Assembly: GCA_016782405.1 (NCBI GenBank)
Contig: JADHYO010000004.1
Span: 1-34,187 of the forward strand
Length of the DNA: 34,187 nucleotides
Origin: Candidatus Aenigmatarchaeota archaeon
GTDB taxonomy: Archaea; Aenigmatarchaeota; Aenigmatarchaeia; QMZP01
Direction of reading: 5' to 3'
In this document: positions 18,161 to 29,514 of the stretch, piece after piece
Numbering within the stretch: position 1 is the first letter of the stretch
Layout of the letters: the number at the start of each line of letters is the position of its first letter
Position numbers and translations under genes: made by a program
The notes under the pieces: generated by a model
Told to the model about the DNA's origin: nothing
Database searches by the model: none
The model's input: only the letters and a program-made list of their open reading frames with translations

Positions 18161-20116
18161 ATGGGTCAATTCGGCGCTCGACAGATGGGGAAAAGAAGGA
18201 AGAAGTACAGGTGGTCTGCCAGCCGAAGGAAGAGGCAGCTTCTAAAGCTCTGGGCTAAGGACCCTCTCAAGGGATCACCTAGAGGGAAGGGGATTGTTCT
18301 CAAGAAGAAGGGAGTGGAACAAAAGCAGCCGCACTCTGGGATTATCAAGTGTGTTTCGCCAAGCACAAAAGTCTATTTAAGCAGTGGCTGCTGCATGGAG
18401 ATTAAGAGAATGGAAAGAAAATGGAAAAACAATGAGGTTTTCTGTTATGACAACAAAATAACGTCTTCGGGTCTTGTTGATTTTTTCAAGCTAAAAAAAA
18501 GCGATGCTTCTAACAGGACCTCATACAAAATTATTACTGATACCGGCAGAAAATTAAGGGCAAGCGGTGACCATCCCATGTATTCCGAAAGAGGAATTAT
18601 TGAACTAAATAATGTGAAAAAAGGAGACAAGCTGGCAGTCATGCCTTCAACTCCTGTTGAATATAAAACCAGCGCAAAAATAATTGCTGATTCTGGGGCT
18701 GTGGAAAGGCACATACCAAGCAATTCCAATGCTAAAACAGCTTTAAAAAATCTTGCCAAATCAAACCTTCTGCCCTTAAGGATGGATAATCCAAAACTGC
18801 CAAAAATAATAAGAATCATGGGTCATCTGTTTGGTGACGGCACTCTGTACAAAGTAATAGACAAATATGGGCATACCCAGGCAAGAGTAATATGCTCAGG
18901 TAGCATCGAAGACCTGAAAGAAATCAAGGCAGACATAGAATCTATTGGATTTCACACCACACCAATATACACAAAAAAATCCGAAAGCAGCATCACAGCA
19001 CATGACGGAAAAGTGAGAGTAATTAAAGGCTACTCTAGCTGCTTTGCTTGTGCGTCTTTGGGATTTGTCGCTCTTCTGGAGTTTTTGGGGGTTCCGAGCG
19101 GTGATAAGACAAGCAAGCCTTTTGATATCCCGAAATGGATAAAAAAAGGGCCTCTATGGGTAAAGGAAGAATTCCTTTCCTCTTATTTTGGGAGCGAATT
19201 GGAAAAGCCCCGGACAGGCCGGAAAGGAAAGACATTCCATCCGCCTTCCTTGGCATTCAGCAAGACAGAATCTGCTATGGAATCAGGAAGGGCCTTTGCA
19301 GAGTCCCTTGAAGAAGTCCTTTGCGAATTTGGGGTAAATATATCCAATATAAAAGAAAGCAAATGCGCCATCAGAAAGGACGGGTCAAAGACTTACAGGC
19401 TTACAATTTACATTGCCTCAAGCCATGGAAACCTGAAAAATCTGTTTGGAAAAATCGGATACAGATACTGCAAAAAAAGGCAGACTTTAGCCATGCACGC
19501 ATTGGCCTATATAATGCACCATCAAAACAGAATGAAAGAATCAAAAAAGGCATACATGAGGGCAATGCAGCTGAAGTCAAGAGGGAAAGACGTATATGAT
19601 ATTATATATGAGCTCAAAACCAAAAGGGATTATTTTGATGTGTCAGAATCCCAAATAAAACACTGGTTTTTTAATGACATATCAGACACGGATAAGCTTG
19701 GCAGAACATTGAGAATCCCTCCATTTGAAAGCTGGAGAAAGAAGGCTTCTGAAGGGCTGAATGATGGGCTTGTCTGGGAAAAGGTCATAGGCATTGGTAC
19801 AATAAAGTGCCCCAAATTATATGATTTAACCACAGAAAAAGATTCGCATAATTTCTTTGCCAATGGTTTTTTGACAGGGAATTGTGTGCGTGTCCAGCTT
19901 TCCAAGAACGGAATCCCTGTTACAGCCTTTGTCCCTGGAACAGGTTCAATAAAGTTTATTGATGAGCATGATGAAGTCCTGCTCGAGGGCCTGAACGGTA
20001 GTCAGGGCGGTGCTGTTGGAAGTATGCACGGTATAAAGTACAAGGTTGTTGCAGTTAATGGTGTGAGCCTTTCAGAGCTGGTAAAGGGCAAGAAGGAGAA
20101 GCCAAAGGGTGCATAA
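18161..20116 (+). CDS. rps12: ribosomal protein S12 (uS12) precursor containing an intein
   Basis: N-extein ...[21 protein letters not shown] and C-extein [36 protein letters not shown] are contiguous in S12 families. Confidence 0.95.
18350..19882 (+). mobile_element. 511-aa LAGLIDADG intein in S12
   Basis: N-terminal [13 protein letters not shown], block [11 protein letters not shown], endonuclease motifs [11 protein letters not shown] and [11 protein letters not shown]-terminal [14 protein letters not shown] followed by Cys. Confidence 0.95.
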
Positions 20117-22284: not shown

Positions 22285-22489
22285 TACTTTAATCCCCGGA
22301 GGACCACCTGTGGCGAAGGCGCTACACTAGAACGGATCCGACGGTCAGGGATGAAAGCTAGGGGAGCAAAGCGGATTAGATACCCGCGTAGTCCTAGCTG
22401 TAAACGATGCCCGCTAGACATTGGCACTCTTACGGGGGGTGCCAGAGTCGTAGGGAAACCGTTAAGCGGGCCGCCTGGGAAGTACGGTC

Positions 22490-23119
22490 ATGAATCTAGG
22501 AATATTAGACCTCGAGTCAATAATGACTATGAACTTTTCAGAGATTGACTCAAAAGCATATATTGCAGGAGTGATTGGTGGGGATGGTCACCTTAATAAA
22601 AACTTTATACAGATAGATGGTGACTCCCCTCAATGGTTACAAACAATTAATACACTGTTCACTACCTGCTTCAACAAACAGGGAAGAGTATATCACAAGA
22701 AGGGAAGTCGTGGATACCGATTATACATATCATCACGATCCCCTGTCCATTATTTTCATGAAAAATGGAATATACCCTTCGGTAAGAAAAGCAAAATTAT
22801 TGAGCCACCCAGGTCGTTAACCCAAGAACGCGAATTAAAGTCATTCCTTATAGGATGGTTTGACGCTGAAGCACATGTCGAACATTGGAAACATCCAAGG
22901 ACAAAACGGATATATCTGAGAATCCAATTCAAAACGAAAAGCGAATCAATACGAAATTTTCTTTTGACGATTCTCCAAGATAGCGGTGTCAATGCAAGTG
23001 TCTATAAGGACAATGAAGGAAGTTTCAGACTTCAAATAGGTTCAAGAAATGATATTACCGAATACAAGCAAAATTTCATTTTTTTGCATCCAAAAAAATC
23101 AGAACTATTGAATTCCTAG
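22490..23119 (+). CDS. LAGLIDADG homing endonuclease (16S intron ORF)
   Basis: YIAGVIGGDGHL and FLIGWFDAEAHV motifs. Confidence 0.9.
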   Translation: MNLGILDLESIMTMNFSEIDSKAYIAGVIGGDGHLNKNFIQIDGDSPQWLQTINTLFTTCFNKQGRVYHKKGSRGYRLYISSRSPVHYFHEKWNIPFGKKSKIIEPPRSLTQERELKSFLIGWFDAEAHVEHWKHPRTKRIYLRIQFKTKSESIRNFLLTILQDSGVNASVYKDNEGSFRLQIGSRNDITEYKQNFIFLHPKKSELLNS

Positions 23120-23130
23120 ATTCACCGGAA
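22490..23130 (+). mobile_element. 16S intron, 641 nt, approx E. coli 897, encoding LAGLIDADG protein
   Basis: Inner helix TGAATCTAGGAAT/ATTCCTAGATTCA; restores CGGTC|GCAAGGCTGAAAC. Confidence 0.93.
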
Positions 23131-23305: not shown

Positions 23306-23345
23306 AGAATATTGTTTTCACGTCATGAGAACCGTGTTCCGATAC
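23306..23345 (+). other. 16S intron, 40 nt, approx E. coli 1079
   Basis: BHB helix GTCG/CGAT, bulges TG|A and AC|A; restores TCGTG|AGGTGTCC. Confidence 0.88.
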
Positions 23346-23368
23346 AGGTGTCCTGTTAAGTCAGGTAA

Positions 23369-23411
23369 ACAGCTAGACGACTTTATTTTATATGTCGTCT
23401 TTCTGGTCTAT
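23369..23411 (+). other. 16S intron, 43 nt, approx E. coli 1102
   Basis: BHB helix AGGT/GTCT, hairpin AGACGAC/GTCGTCT; restores GGTAA|CGAACGAGACCC. Confidence 0.88.
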
Positions 23412-23678
23412 CGAACGAGACCCATATCCTATGTTGCAACCTGTCCCTCCGGGGGCGGGGCACTCATAGGAGACCGCTGCTGATAAAGCAGAGGAAGGAA
23501 TGGTCGACGGCAGGTCCGTATGGTCTGAATCCGCTGGGTTACACGCGGCCTACAATGGCTGGGATAATAGGATGCCACCCTGTAAGGGGGAGCCAATCCT
23601 CAAACCCAGTCCAAATCCGGATCGAGGGCTGCAACCCGCTCTCGTGAAGCCGAAATCCCTAGTAGTCGCTGGTCATCA

Positions 23679-23729
23679 AGCACCCTTTTAGAAAAAGGCT
23701 GCACCCAAAAACTAAAAGAGTGCGTGAAA
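23679..23729 (+). other. 16S intron, 51 nt, approx E. coli 1363
   Basis: BHB helix TCAT/GTGA, inner helix GCAC/GTGC; restores CGCTGGTCATCA|TCTAGCGGCGAATA. Confidence 0.88.
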
Positions 23730-23786
23730 TCTAGCGGCGAATATGTTCCTACTCCTTGCACACACTGGGCTCAGAAAAACAGAAAA

Positions 23787-23796
23787 GCTTTATAAC
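23787..23796 (+). promoter_or_regulatory. candidate intron-internal TATA box
   Basis: GCTTTATAAC about 22 nt upstream of ATG 23818. Confidence 0.35.
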
Positions 23797-23817
23797 ACAT
23801 GAAGACAATAAGTCTAT

Positions 23818-24567
23818 ATGAAGCGTGCAAGATACCTAAGGTTAGTAGCTCTTTGTCTCTCGGATGGTGGAGTTGGTTTCAGTAGTGGAACAAAGTATAT
23901 CCACTTTACAAACCAATCTCCTATCCTATTGGATCTTTTTAAAAAAGAGATTAGGAAATTCTCCAACTCTAAAATCCATAAACAAATTAAGGAAAGGGGG
24001 ATTACGTTAAGGGTTTTTGATAAAAATCTAGTGAAAAATCTCCTGGAAATATCACCAAATTTTAGGACCAAGCCAGTTGATCATCACCCTGTAAACAGAA
24101 AAATCCAGGAAATAACAACTCTTAACGGTATTAAATACCCAAAAATCAGAATTCCTAACGATATATTCATATCCAAGAGAGACAAATCAGAATTCCTTAG
24201 AATATATGCTTCATGCGATGGTTATCCATCTATATTCCCCAGGAAATATTCTTGGTCTGCGGTTGAAAGGATCGTAGCTATAGTGGCTCAACATCCGATT
24301 ATAAAGAAAAGAATCTCAGAGCTTCTGACAGAATTTGACATAAACCATAAAATTAAAATGTCAGGAGTCTTTATGCGAAGTAGAGAAGCTATTATAAAAT
24401 ATAAGGAAAACATTGGCTTTGTTGATGGTGTTAGAATGACAGGAAATTCAAAATTCTGGAAAGGCGTAACAAAAAACAAGGTTCTGGATATTATATCAAA
24501 ATCTTATGATATTAAATTCCCTTCAAAAGATAAAAGCGATGTTCTTCGTGTGTTAAAAAGTGTCTGA
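23818..24567 (+). CDS. LAGLIDADG homing endonuclease (16S intron ORF)
   Basis: LVALCLSDGGV and FLRIYASCDGYPS motifs. Confidence 0.85.
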   Translation: MKRARYLRLVALCLSDGGVGFSSGTKYIHFTNQSPILLDLFKKEIRKFSNSKIHKQIKERGITLRVFDKNLVKNLLEISPNFRTKPVDHHPVNRKIQEITTLNGIKYPKIRIPNDIFISKRDKSEFLRIYASCDGYPSIFPRKYSWSAVERIVAIVAQHPIIKKRISELLTEFDINHKIKMSGVFMRSREAIIKYKENIGFVDGVRMTGNSKFWKGVTKNKVLDIISKSYDIKFPSKDKSDVLRVLKSV

Positions 24568-24676
24568 AATCTTTCTGGGTTTAGGTGTAAACTGCCCGTC
24601 AAGCCAACCGAGTGGATTTATGGCGAGCTTCTGGTTCTTGCCAGAATCAAGTCATTTTTCTGCAAGGTGGGCTAAG

Positions 24677-24707
24677 AATCTTCTAAGGTTTCTTAGCAGG
24701 TTAGCAA
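24677..24707 (+). other. 16S intron, 31 nt, approx E. coli 1494/1495
   Basis: BHB helix GCTA/TAGC, bulges AG|A and AA|T, inner helix ATCTtCTAAG/CTTAGcAGGT. Confidence 0.85.
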
Positions 24708-24712
24708 TCGTA

Positions 24713-24782
24713 AGATGGCTAGATGGGCAAACTGACTGCTTCGGCAGGATGATAGTTTAGGGAACATTTAGTGGTCCGACAA
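24713..24782 (+). other. 16S intron, 70 nt, approx E. coli 1499/1500
   Basis: BHB helix GTCG/CGAC (H strand complete only after upstream intron removed), bulges TA|A and AA|A; restores AAGTCGTA|ACAAGGTAACC. Confidence 0.82.
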
Positions 24783-24920
24783 ACAAGGTAACCGTACGGG
24801 AACGTGCGGTTGGATCACCTCCTTATTTTGTTTCCACCGGGATTCCGAATTAGCGCAGGCTTTGCCTGTGTTTTCCGAAGTTGAGGGCCGATAGATCAAC
24901 GGTAGATCGCCTGCCTTGCA

Positions 24921-24965
24921 GCGCACCTTTTTAGAAAAAAGCTGCACCAAAAAAGTGAGCAAGTT
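24921..24965 (+). other. tRNA-Ala intron 1 (45 nt, position 37/38)
   Basis: BHB helix CTTG/CAAG, bulges CA|G and TT|A. Confidence 0.9.
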
Positions 24966-24987
24966 AGCAGGAGGCTGTGGGTTCAAA

Positions 24988-25034
24988 AGCACTTTCTTTA
25001 AAAAAAGAAAGCGCCCAAAGAAAAGGGCTGAACA
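24988..25034 (+). other. tRNA-Ala intron 2 (47 nt, T loop 59/60)
   Basis: BHB helix TTCA/TGAA, bulges AA|A and CA|T; restores TTCAAAT. Confidence 0.88.
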
Positions 25035-25085
25035 TCCCACTCGGTCCATTGCTTCAATCTAAAGCGCGCAGGGGTATACAAAAAG

Positions 25086-26909: not shown

Positions 26910-27158
26910 TCGAGAAAACTACTTTAATAGTGAAAACAATAAATCGCATGGATTCCAAAAAAATTCTGGAAATTGTTAAAAAATGGAACATCAATTATAC
27001 TCCGGAATTTCGCGGATTTCGTTGTGCCAAATGCCAGAAAAAAATGCACAAAGCATGGCATATTTGGCTTAATGAAGGCGGTTACAAAATTGAAGTTCAT
27101 TTCTGCAGAAAATGTGGAAAAGATATTGGACTTAAGTGATGTGGTTTTCTCGGCCGAA
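26910..27158 (+). mobile_element. 23S intron, 249 nt, encoding small zinc-ribbon ORF
   Basis: BHB helix CGGT/GCCG, inner helix CGAGAAAAC/GTTTTCTCG; restores CAACGGTCA|TCGGCTGAGGG. Confidence 0.9.
26930..27139 (+). CDS. small zinc-ribbon protein (intron ORF)
   Basis: FRCAKCQKKM...FCRKCGKDIGLK, two CxxC knuckles; GTG 26930 or ATG 26948. Confidence 0.65.
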   Translation: MKTINRMDSKKILEIVKKWNINYTPEFRGFRCAKCQKKMHKAWHIWLNEGGYKIEVHFCRKCGKDIGLK

Positions 27159-27186
27159 TCGGCTGAGGGTTAATGGCAATAGGAAC

Positions 27187-27194
27187 TTTATATA
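27187..27194 (+). promoter_or_regulatory. candidate intron-internal TATA box
   Basis: TTTATATA 31 nt upstream of ATG 27225. Confidence 0.4.
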
Positions 27195-27224
27195 CCTGGT
27201 AGCACAATAAATAACTGATGATAT

Positions 27225-28169
27225 ATGGAAATATTGAGGTTATTGCCCCCTGATACAAGAGTACAACTACAAAACTATTCGGAATTGGAGAAGCTCATAG
27301 ACACCCATAGAAATAATATAGAGAAAGTCCTTAAGCGTTCAAAGCAACAAATTTCTCTATATAAAAAAGGGAAAACGAAACTGAGCATAAAACAACTAAG
27401 AAAACTGTCAGAAATTTTCAATTTTAAATGGGAGACTAATATCGAAAATTTCGGTCTTGAAGCTTCTAAACATCTCATCAAATTACCAACAGAAATAAAA
27501 ATTTCTGAAAATTTAGCGTGGCTTCTAGGCTTTCATTCGACGGAAAATTCAGAAACACCTCACTCATTTGGTATTTGTAATTCAGATATCAGGTTAGTGA
27601 AAAAGGCAATAGATGTCATAAAGGAAATGAAATTCCCAGAAGAACTCATAAAAATAGAGGTCAGATATACCAAAGATATTGATATACAGAATCTTATACA
27701 AGAAGTTGTCAAGACTTTGAGTAGAGACGCGAAAACAGTCAACACAAGGAAGATGGAAGAAAAAAGTCTCACAAAAAAACCTTTGTATACAGCTCGTATA
27801 AACTCAAGACTAATAAAAGAAATATTTAACAATATGCATAATACAATTCTTGGGCATTTCAGTAAATTTCCACTACCAATTCAGAAAAGTTATATCAGAG
27901 GGATTTATGATGCAGATGGTTGGTTCAACAAAGCGAAGAAGATTATAGTTCTTGCTCAAAAAGAAGAAGAAACCATAGATTTTGTTTATGGTGCTTTAAA
28001 GAGATTTGGAATACGAACAAGGAAGGAATACTGGAAATATAGAGATTATCATGTTTGTGTTATTGTTCATGGTAAACAAGGGGAAAATCTAAAAAAATTC
28101 ATCAATATTATTGGTTTTTCTCATCAAGAAAAAGCTATCAGAATGAAGAAATTCCTATTGTCAGCTTAA
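27225..28169 (+). CDS. LAGLIDADG-family intron protein with HTH-like N-terminus
   Basis: SKQQISLYKKGKTKLSIKQLRKLSEIF HTH-like; LAWLLGFHSTEN and YIRGIYDADGWF motifs. Confidence 0.85.
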   Translation: MEILRLLPPDTRVQLQNYSELEKLIDTHRNNIEKVLKRSKQQISLYKKGKTKLSIKQLRKLSEIFNFKWETNIENFGLEASKHLIKLPTEIKISENLAWLLGFHSTENSETPHSFGICNSDIRLVKKAIDVIKEMKFPEELIKIEVRYTKDIDIQNLIQEVVKTLSRDAKTVNTRKMEEKSLTKKPLYTARINSRLIKEIFNNMHNTILGHFSKFPLPIQKSYIRGIYDADGWFNKAKKIIVLAQKEEETIDFVYGALKRFGIRTRKEYWKYRDYHVCVIVHGKQGENLKKFINIIGFSHQEKAIRMKKFLLSA

Positions 28170-28764: not shown

Positions 28765-28812
28765 ACAAGCGGTCAAATGAAAGCCCGATATGATGGGCAA
28801 CGCTTGAGATAT
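28765..28812 (+). other. 23S intron, 48 nt
   Basis: BHB helix GTCT/AGAT, inner helix CAAGCG/CGCTTG; restores GTCTTA|AGGTAGCG. Confidence 0.9.
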
Positions 28813-28820
28813 AGGTAGCG

Positions 28821-28856
28821 TAAAGTCGTTAAGCTGGATAACAGCAAAGCCATGCG
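28821..28856 (+). other. probable 23S intron, about 36 nt (borders ambiguous)
   Basis: Interrupts conserved GGTAGCG-AAATTCCTTGTCG; GCGTAA direct repeats at both edges; hairpin GTTA/TAAC. Confidence 0.6.
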
Positions 28857-29199: not shown

Positions 29200-29458
29200 G
29201 CGGCACGCCCTTGACAGGAAATCAAGGGCGCCCTAAGGTCACCTCATCGAGGTCAGAAATCTCGAGTAGAGTGCAAGCGCAAAAGGTGGCTTGATAGGAT
29301 CCCGGACAACAGATCTCTTCTGTAAGGAAGATTTCGGTTATAACGGATCCTAACACGAAAGTGTGGGCTAGCGACCCCCTGTGTCCTCATTATTGGGGGC
29401 CAGGTTCGCCAGAAAAGTTACCTCGGGGATAATGGAGTCGTGGCGGGCGAGAGTTCCC

Positions 29459-29514
29459 GTCTAGCTCTTGGACTTCTCATTAAGATTAAAAGCACCAAGC
29501 GCGTTGGAGAATAA
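29459..29514 (+). other. 23S intron, 56 nt, approx E. coli 2477
   Basis: BHB helix GTTC/GAAT; restores GAGAGTTCCC|ATCGACC. Confidence 0.82.

Follow-up and report, generated by a model that had tools for sequence, protein, structure and literature searches.

What are the two insertions that break the 16S rRNA gene of this Aenigmatarchaeota archaeon within a few nucleotides of each other in the decoding helix, do they have to leave the transcript in a fixed order, and do they serve the RNA that they interrupt? The window, i.e., the whole stretch of 34,187 nucleotides that was analysed, contains full-length matches to the archaeal SSU and LSU rRNA models; the exons and introns mapped between 24591 and 24826 lie on its forward strand. 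Near its 3' end, the 16S gene reads GGGCTAAG (24669-24676), 31 nt of insertion (24677-24707), TCGTA (24708-24712), 70 nt of insertion (24713-24782) and ACAAGGTAACC (from 24783). The exon at 24591-24676 corresponds to about A1398 to G1494 of E. coli, whose numbering is used here; A1492 and A1493 stand just upstream of the first insertion (intron 1, 1494/1495). The micro-exon UCGUA comprises U1495-A1499, the second insertion (intron 2) falls at 1499/1500, and the last exon (24783-24826) carries the anti-Shine-Dalgarno end.

Both insertions follow the bulge-helix-bulge (BHB) rule, applied here as a 4-bp central helix (H) flanked by two 3-nt bulges cut 2|1. Intron 1 has, as the sequence-only reading had proposed, a complete H (GCUA/UAGC, 24671-24674 with 24702-24705); the bulges are AG|A and AA|U, its outer helix is absent and a competing hairpin is 2.6 kcal/mol better. 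Intron 2 follows the rule once intron 1 is out: the CGAC at 24777-24780 then pairs with G24676 and 24708-24710 (H GUCG/CGAC, bulges UA|A and AA|A), and this motif is repeated in other introns at the same site. The intron 2 cut may be shifted by -1 or +1 nt with an unchanged product; the 5-nt exon was chosen among these sliding cuts because of the 2|1 rule. The junctions are backed by relatives. Excision of intron 2 restores the conserved rRNA as read in intronless genomes, and the intronless 16S of one relative (G035) aligns over both flanks, the gap being the 5 nt alone. Around 1494-1499, intronless relatives read AAGTCGTAACAAGG or the family variants GTCGCC, GTCGCA and GTCGTC, which agree with the intron-adjoining exon letters in the same families. 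Intronless members of other families, for example those of f16 with GTCGCCACAAGG, show exactly the exon letters that the splice sites predict, an independent check of the junctions. Judged from the sequence, helix h44 is interrupted by two separate EndA-type (BHB) introns, and the earlier description of a five-nucleotide exon between two introns, joined into conserved 16S sequence, holds in full. Such an exon illustrates how finely archaeal splicing can dissect a functional RNA. Since introns of this kind break up the site to which the 1492R PCR primer binds, 16S surveys are likely to miss the organisms carrying them.

As a side observation, the mature 16S of genomes from families f13, f16 and f17 has GTCGCA, GTCGCC or GTCGTC at 1494-1499 as opposed to GTCGTA, a change at the usually universal positions 1498-1499.

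Intron 2 harbors a module resembling one half of a C/D guide RNA. The inner helix P1 (5' strand 24714-24723, 3' strand 24767-24776) leads into the guide GATGGGCA (24722-24729), antisense to 16S U1400-C1407 (24593-24600), in which G24727 occupies the N+5 position opposite C1402 (24595), the nucleotide predicted to be methylated. It is followed by a D'-like box CUGA (24732-24735), a putative kink-turn stem CUGC-UUCG-GCAG (K-stem, 24736-24747) and a C'-like box AUGAUAG (24749-24755). The same architecture, namely P1, GAYGGGCR, two nucleotides, D'-like NUGA, hairpin stem and C'-like RUGAN, is common to 17 introns at this site drawn from seven families (f1, f3, f4, f5, f20, f22 and f24). The D'-like box is NUGA in 16 of them and UCGA once; the G.A/A.G tandem between D' and C' is kept in every one. 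The pair D'1-C'6 is Watson-Crick in 14/17, with exchange between A-U and U-A (shuffle P = 0.0018, shared descent ignored), and P1 and the K-stem are paired with many compensatory pair types. Compared with the consensus boxes CUGA and RUGAUGA, most of the other introns combine UUGA or AUGA with AUGAY, while the boxes are canonical in f16. In the f1 introns, intron 2 of the host genome (G000) included, terminal C and D boxes cannot be made out clearly and the C'/D' half alone is evident; in f16 introns plausible terminal boxes were spotted by eye. Because the terminal boxes are unclear, intron 2 is described here as working like a C/D guide rather than as a canonical C/D sRNA. The first three nucleotides of the guide double as a P1 strand, so the duplex amounts to 8 bp, of which 5 are uncontested if P1 is fully closed. 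A mismatch, A.C1399, borders it in 16/17 introns; in L038, the pairing extends over ten nucleotides with no mismatch (1398-1407). A second antisense element, GUGUGC against 16S 1394-1399, occurs in about half of the introns and was set aside; it often has a partner within an internal hairpin.

The target of the module, 16S 1400-1407, is the h44 strand across from the intron insertion. The guide pairs with position 1400 in all 17 cases, as A-U with U1400 in 14 and as G-C with C1400 in three (P = 0.001, descent ignored), and the constant spacing between guide and D'-like box places C1402 at N+5 throughout. When the upstream rRNA was scanned in this register with the introns shorter than 300 nt (1190 positions for 14 of them, 195 for L019 and 477 for L036), C1402 was the top target in 16/16. 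Another module, GGCUUGAC followed by a CUGA or CUAA box, is found in introns of f16, f20 and f24, and A1408 ranks first as its target in 5/5; the f16 introns bearing it have the boxes CUGA...AUGAUGA. Overall, the best target falls within 1396-1410 for 18 of 76 10-mers preceding D-like boxes versus 111 of 1911 elsewhere (P = 7e-7). The antisense match of any single intron against shuffles gives P of about 0.001-0.12; the case for a guide rests on conservation, register and covariation, the match of a single intron being weak. Both nucleotides have precedents. C1402 is 2'-O-methylated in E. coli, with the equivalents Cm1639 in yeast, Cm1703 in humans and Cm1645 in Arabidopsis, the last made by a C/D snoRNP (PMC11542601); in S. 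acidocaldarius and N. equitans, A1408 is among the predicted C/D targets (PMC4644070).

Free-standing counterparts were sought as well. None with an exact CUGA turned up in intronless genomes. A search across the phylum for an sRNA with GAYGGGCRGT plus STGA gave four matches; judged from the flanks, one lies in rtcB-like coding sequence, one on the antisense strand of 16S, and two in what looks like other unrelated sequence. Separately, a guide-like GGAGGUGA or GGAGGTGA precedes a KTGA box in three f16 introns at 1499/1500 (L028, L030 and L032); it is antisense to the anti-Shine-Dalgarno end of 16S and would target C1535.

The best overall explanation is probably that these are BHB introns, the second of which acts as a C'/D'-like methylation guide directed at 16S; we put this at roughly two in three. 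It draws on the introns, the exon, the BHB motifs, the conserved module, its register and the covariation, all of them read from sequence. With slightly less assurance, we consider it likely that an rRNA intron guides fibrillarin, before or after excision, to nucleotides on the opposite strand of h44 (C1402, and A1408 in other families) and in this way would couple splicing with methylation. Splicing, RNP assembly, methylation of the intron 2 target and the splicing order are what we infer. L7Ae would bind the kink-turn of intron 2, Nop5 and fibrillarin would join it, and C1402 would be 2'-O-methylated, whether by the intron acting in cis while still part of the precursor or by its circular form acting in trans after excision; EndA and RtcB would then excise intron 2 and join the exons. 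The host genome (625 kb, 65% complete) encodes Nop5, L7Ae, EndA and RtcB. Fibrillarin was not found in this 65% complete genome; it is present in 149/158 relatives and in 40/40 high-quality genomes of the phylum. As an aside, the gene of the splicing ligase, rtcB (G000 C5:8089-9432, L183), contains an insertion of about 30 nt with an in-frame TAG; this insertion folds into a hairpin resembling a BHB and may be an intron of the ligase's own mRNA.

If true, this would be the first case known to us of an intron inside an rRNA guiding the modification of the same rRNA, an intron-borne counterpart of the eukaryotic snoRNA for the same nucleotide, and it would offer a selective reason for introns to persist where the ribosome is most conserved. 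A literature search, with most subscription journals outside it, returned no report joining rRNA introns with C/D guides.

The strongest competitor, which we nevertheless regard as unlikely, is that the intron serves as a splicing or folding chaperone: the GGGCR stretch would keep the 5' strand of h44 (1400-1407) off 1494-1500 so that the BHB can form, L7Ae would stabilise the kink-turn, and methylation would not be guided. The guide target is indeed exactly the strand that competes with the exon half of the BHB in mature h44, and conservation as well as covariation at 1400 are explained equally well by either model. Still, a chaperone leaves two features unpredicted: the constant distance of two nucleotides between guide and D'-like box, and a second module that has canonical CUGA/AUGAUGA boxes and exact A1408 register. 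Moreover, the mini-introns L011 and L033, located at the same site, lack the guide module and presumably splice there all the same.

How the intron is distributed bears on another, still less probable possibility, that of ordinary mobile BHB introns devoid of function, whose conservation reflects homing and recent common descent. Pattern searches detect a BHB intron at the intron 2 site in 27 of 160 Aenigmatarchaeota genomes, 17 of which have the guide module in it, and the 16S is uninterrupted there in about 32 relatives; within the order of the host, the intron is present in most genomes whose 16S end is readable, and three are uninterrupted. In L008, a group I intron (RF00028, 70 bits) occupies the site and there is no BHB intron; the window gives no group I match (RF00028) at the gathering score, and a scan of the introns for known Rfam families yielded the group I intron of L008 and nothing else. 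Mobility would account for the intron-free relatives, the use of the same site by a group I intron, the long ORF-bearing introns found there in L015, L029, L034, L037 and L089 (recognised by eye from length and sequence) and the LAGLIDADG genes in other introns of the window. It fits less well with P1 and the K-stem changing pair by pair across 17 introns while guide and boxes stay fixed, with a guide that tracks 16S position 1400, and with short module-bearing introns that have no endonuclease genes. Two further observations concern the same collection of 16S ends. In L027, L029 and L033, the gene appears to be broken once more after ACAAGGTAGCCGTA, about 14 nt past intron 2, so that the exon in between is again very short; the several extra 16S ends of G028 (L022-L026) are probably bacterial or organellar contamination.

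The sequence-only reading had also argued for an obligatory, proofreading-like order in which intron 1 must leave before intron 2 becomes a substrate. Its starting point is correct: the last A of intron 1 stands in the place of G1494, hence only three pairs remain in the intron 2 H (G1494-G1497 with CGAC; AUCG/CGAC) as long as intron 1 is present, and four form afterwards. In a local fold, the pair probability of this helix rises from about 0.05 with intron 1 to 0.57 without it, and the same break recurs in a second genome. At the same time, in the unspliced RNA the 3-bp BHB of intron 2 can be forced at only 2.0 kcal/mol above the minimum, compared with 2.6 for intron 1's own BHB; since neither the remainder of 16S nor proteins or temperature enter such folds, they are weak evidence either way.

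The endonuclease argues against a strict requirement. The catalytic EndA of the host (391 aa, L002 877-2052) is a whole-length homologue of the ARMAN-2 epsilon2 EndA (PDB 4fz2/9w2k, E = 3.3e-104); in the alignment, its Tyr/His/Lys triad is conserved, as is the Tyr-Lys in the ARMAN-specific loop (ASL), and epsilon2-type enzymes cleave relaxed BHB motifs (PMC12397907; PMC4033280). A second EndA-like protein of 192 aa apparently lacks the catalytic lysine, as judged by eye. Comparison with relatives points the same way. The arrangement with intron 1 is rare and is known, besides the host, only from L035 (G110, another family), with 31 nt at 1494/1495, a TCGTA exon and intron 2. There, intron 1 itself has an H with 3/4 pairs (GCUA/GAGC), so three-pair helices appear to be tolerated, and removing intron 1 brings no rise in the predicted pairing of intron 2. 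In L015, L036 and L037, the upstream intron lies 2 nt earlier (1492/1493), leaving a 7-nt exon AGUCGUA and an entire GUCG; the ordering constraint is thus missing in three of the five double-intron genes. Finally, were the last nucleotide random, the pair would be lost three times in four; two breaks in two cases therefore call for no selection. Neither the obligatory order nor its proofreading role is therefore borne out, and we regard them as improbable; removal of intron 1 before intron 2 is inferred as a weak preference, not a necessity. Intron 1, rarely present, splits the exon half of the central helix of intron 2; a 5-nt exon is left, and earlier removal of intron 1 would be favoured, not enforced.

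An assembly artefact or an rRNA pseudogene is scarcely credible: the assembly is fragmented and 65% complete with a single copy, but the full-length SSU and LSU models match around the introns, the exons splice to conserved sequence, and the double-intron layout recurs in another family (L035).

Individual elements of this arrangement have counterparts in other systems. The BHB introns in 16S of Thermoproteales (PMC4496867) share EndA-type sites, hairpin introns below 50 nt, LAGLIDADG introns and the occurrence of several closely spaced introns within one gene (loci 901/907/908/919 and 1205/1213); in the available part of that account, the listed loci stop at 1391, 1494 and 1499 are absent, and no guide module is described. 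The multi-intron tRNAs of Thermoproteales (PMC4033280) likewise combine several BHB introns in one short RNA with broad-specificity endonucleases, whereas here the host is an rRNA and the exon between the introns measures 5 nt. A BHB intron that doubles as a guide for its host RNA is known from archaeal pre-tRNA-Trp (H. volcanii, Pyrococcus sR50; PMC7994747, PMC4090602), where it acts as a C/D guide on that same tRNA; intron 2 differs in its 16S host, its putative decoding-centre target (C1402, A1408) and its f1-type form, in which the C'/D' half alone is evident. The Arabidopsis C/D snoRNA AtU43, which directs 18S Cm1645 (PMC11542601), shares the nucleotide equivalent to C1402 and the N+5 rule but has a gene of its own rather than being an intron of the modified rRNA. 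Archaeal group I introns at SSU/1498 (PMC6125680) use a practically identical insertion site, where L008 has one, whereas intron 2 has a full BHB and no group I match.

The window contains further insertions. A third intron of the decoding helix (23766-24590, about 1397/1398; H ACAC/GTGT, bulges AC|T and AA|A) holds a LAGLIDADG ORF (23818-24567) and ends 2 nt ahead of the guide target. Upstream in 16S, the insertions at 22488-23130, 23309-23408 and 23670-23733 comprise one LAGLIDADG intron and several mini-introns. The 23S gene is interrupted at 26912-28168 (with a LAGLIDADG ORF, 27225-28169), 28766-28853 and 29457-29514, and the second of these insertions contains GATGGGCA (28792-28799), identical to the guide word of intron 2. 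Between 16S and 23S lies a tRNA-Ala(UGC)-like gene (24885-25055) that neither ARAGORN nor Rfam detected and that is broken by two mini-introns. The first of these introns resembles a 16S mini-intron near 23679-23730 (GCACC-TTTTAGAAAAA-GCTGCACC-AAAA), a likeness that suggests intron transposition. Outside the rRNA genes, the uS12 gene (18161-20116) has an intein inside, with Pfam matches to S12 and an intein splicing domain.
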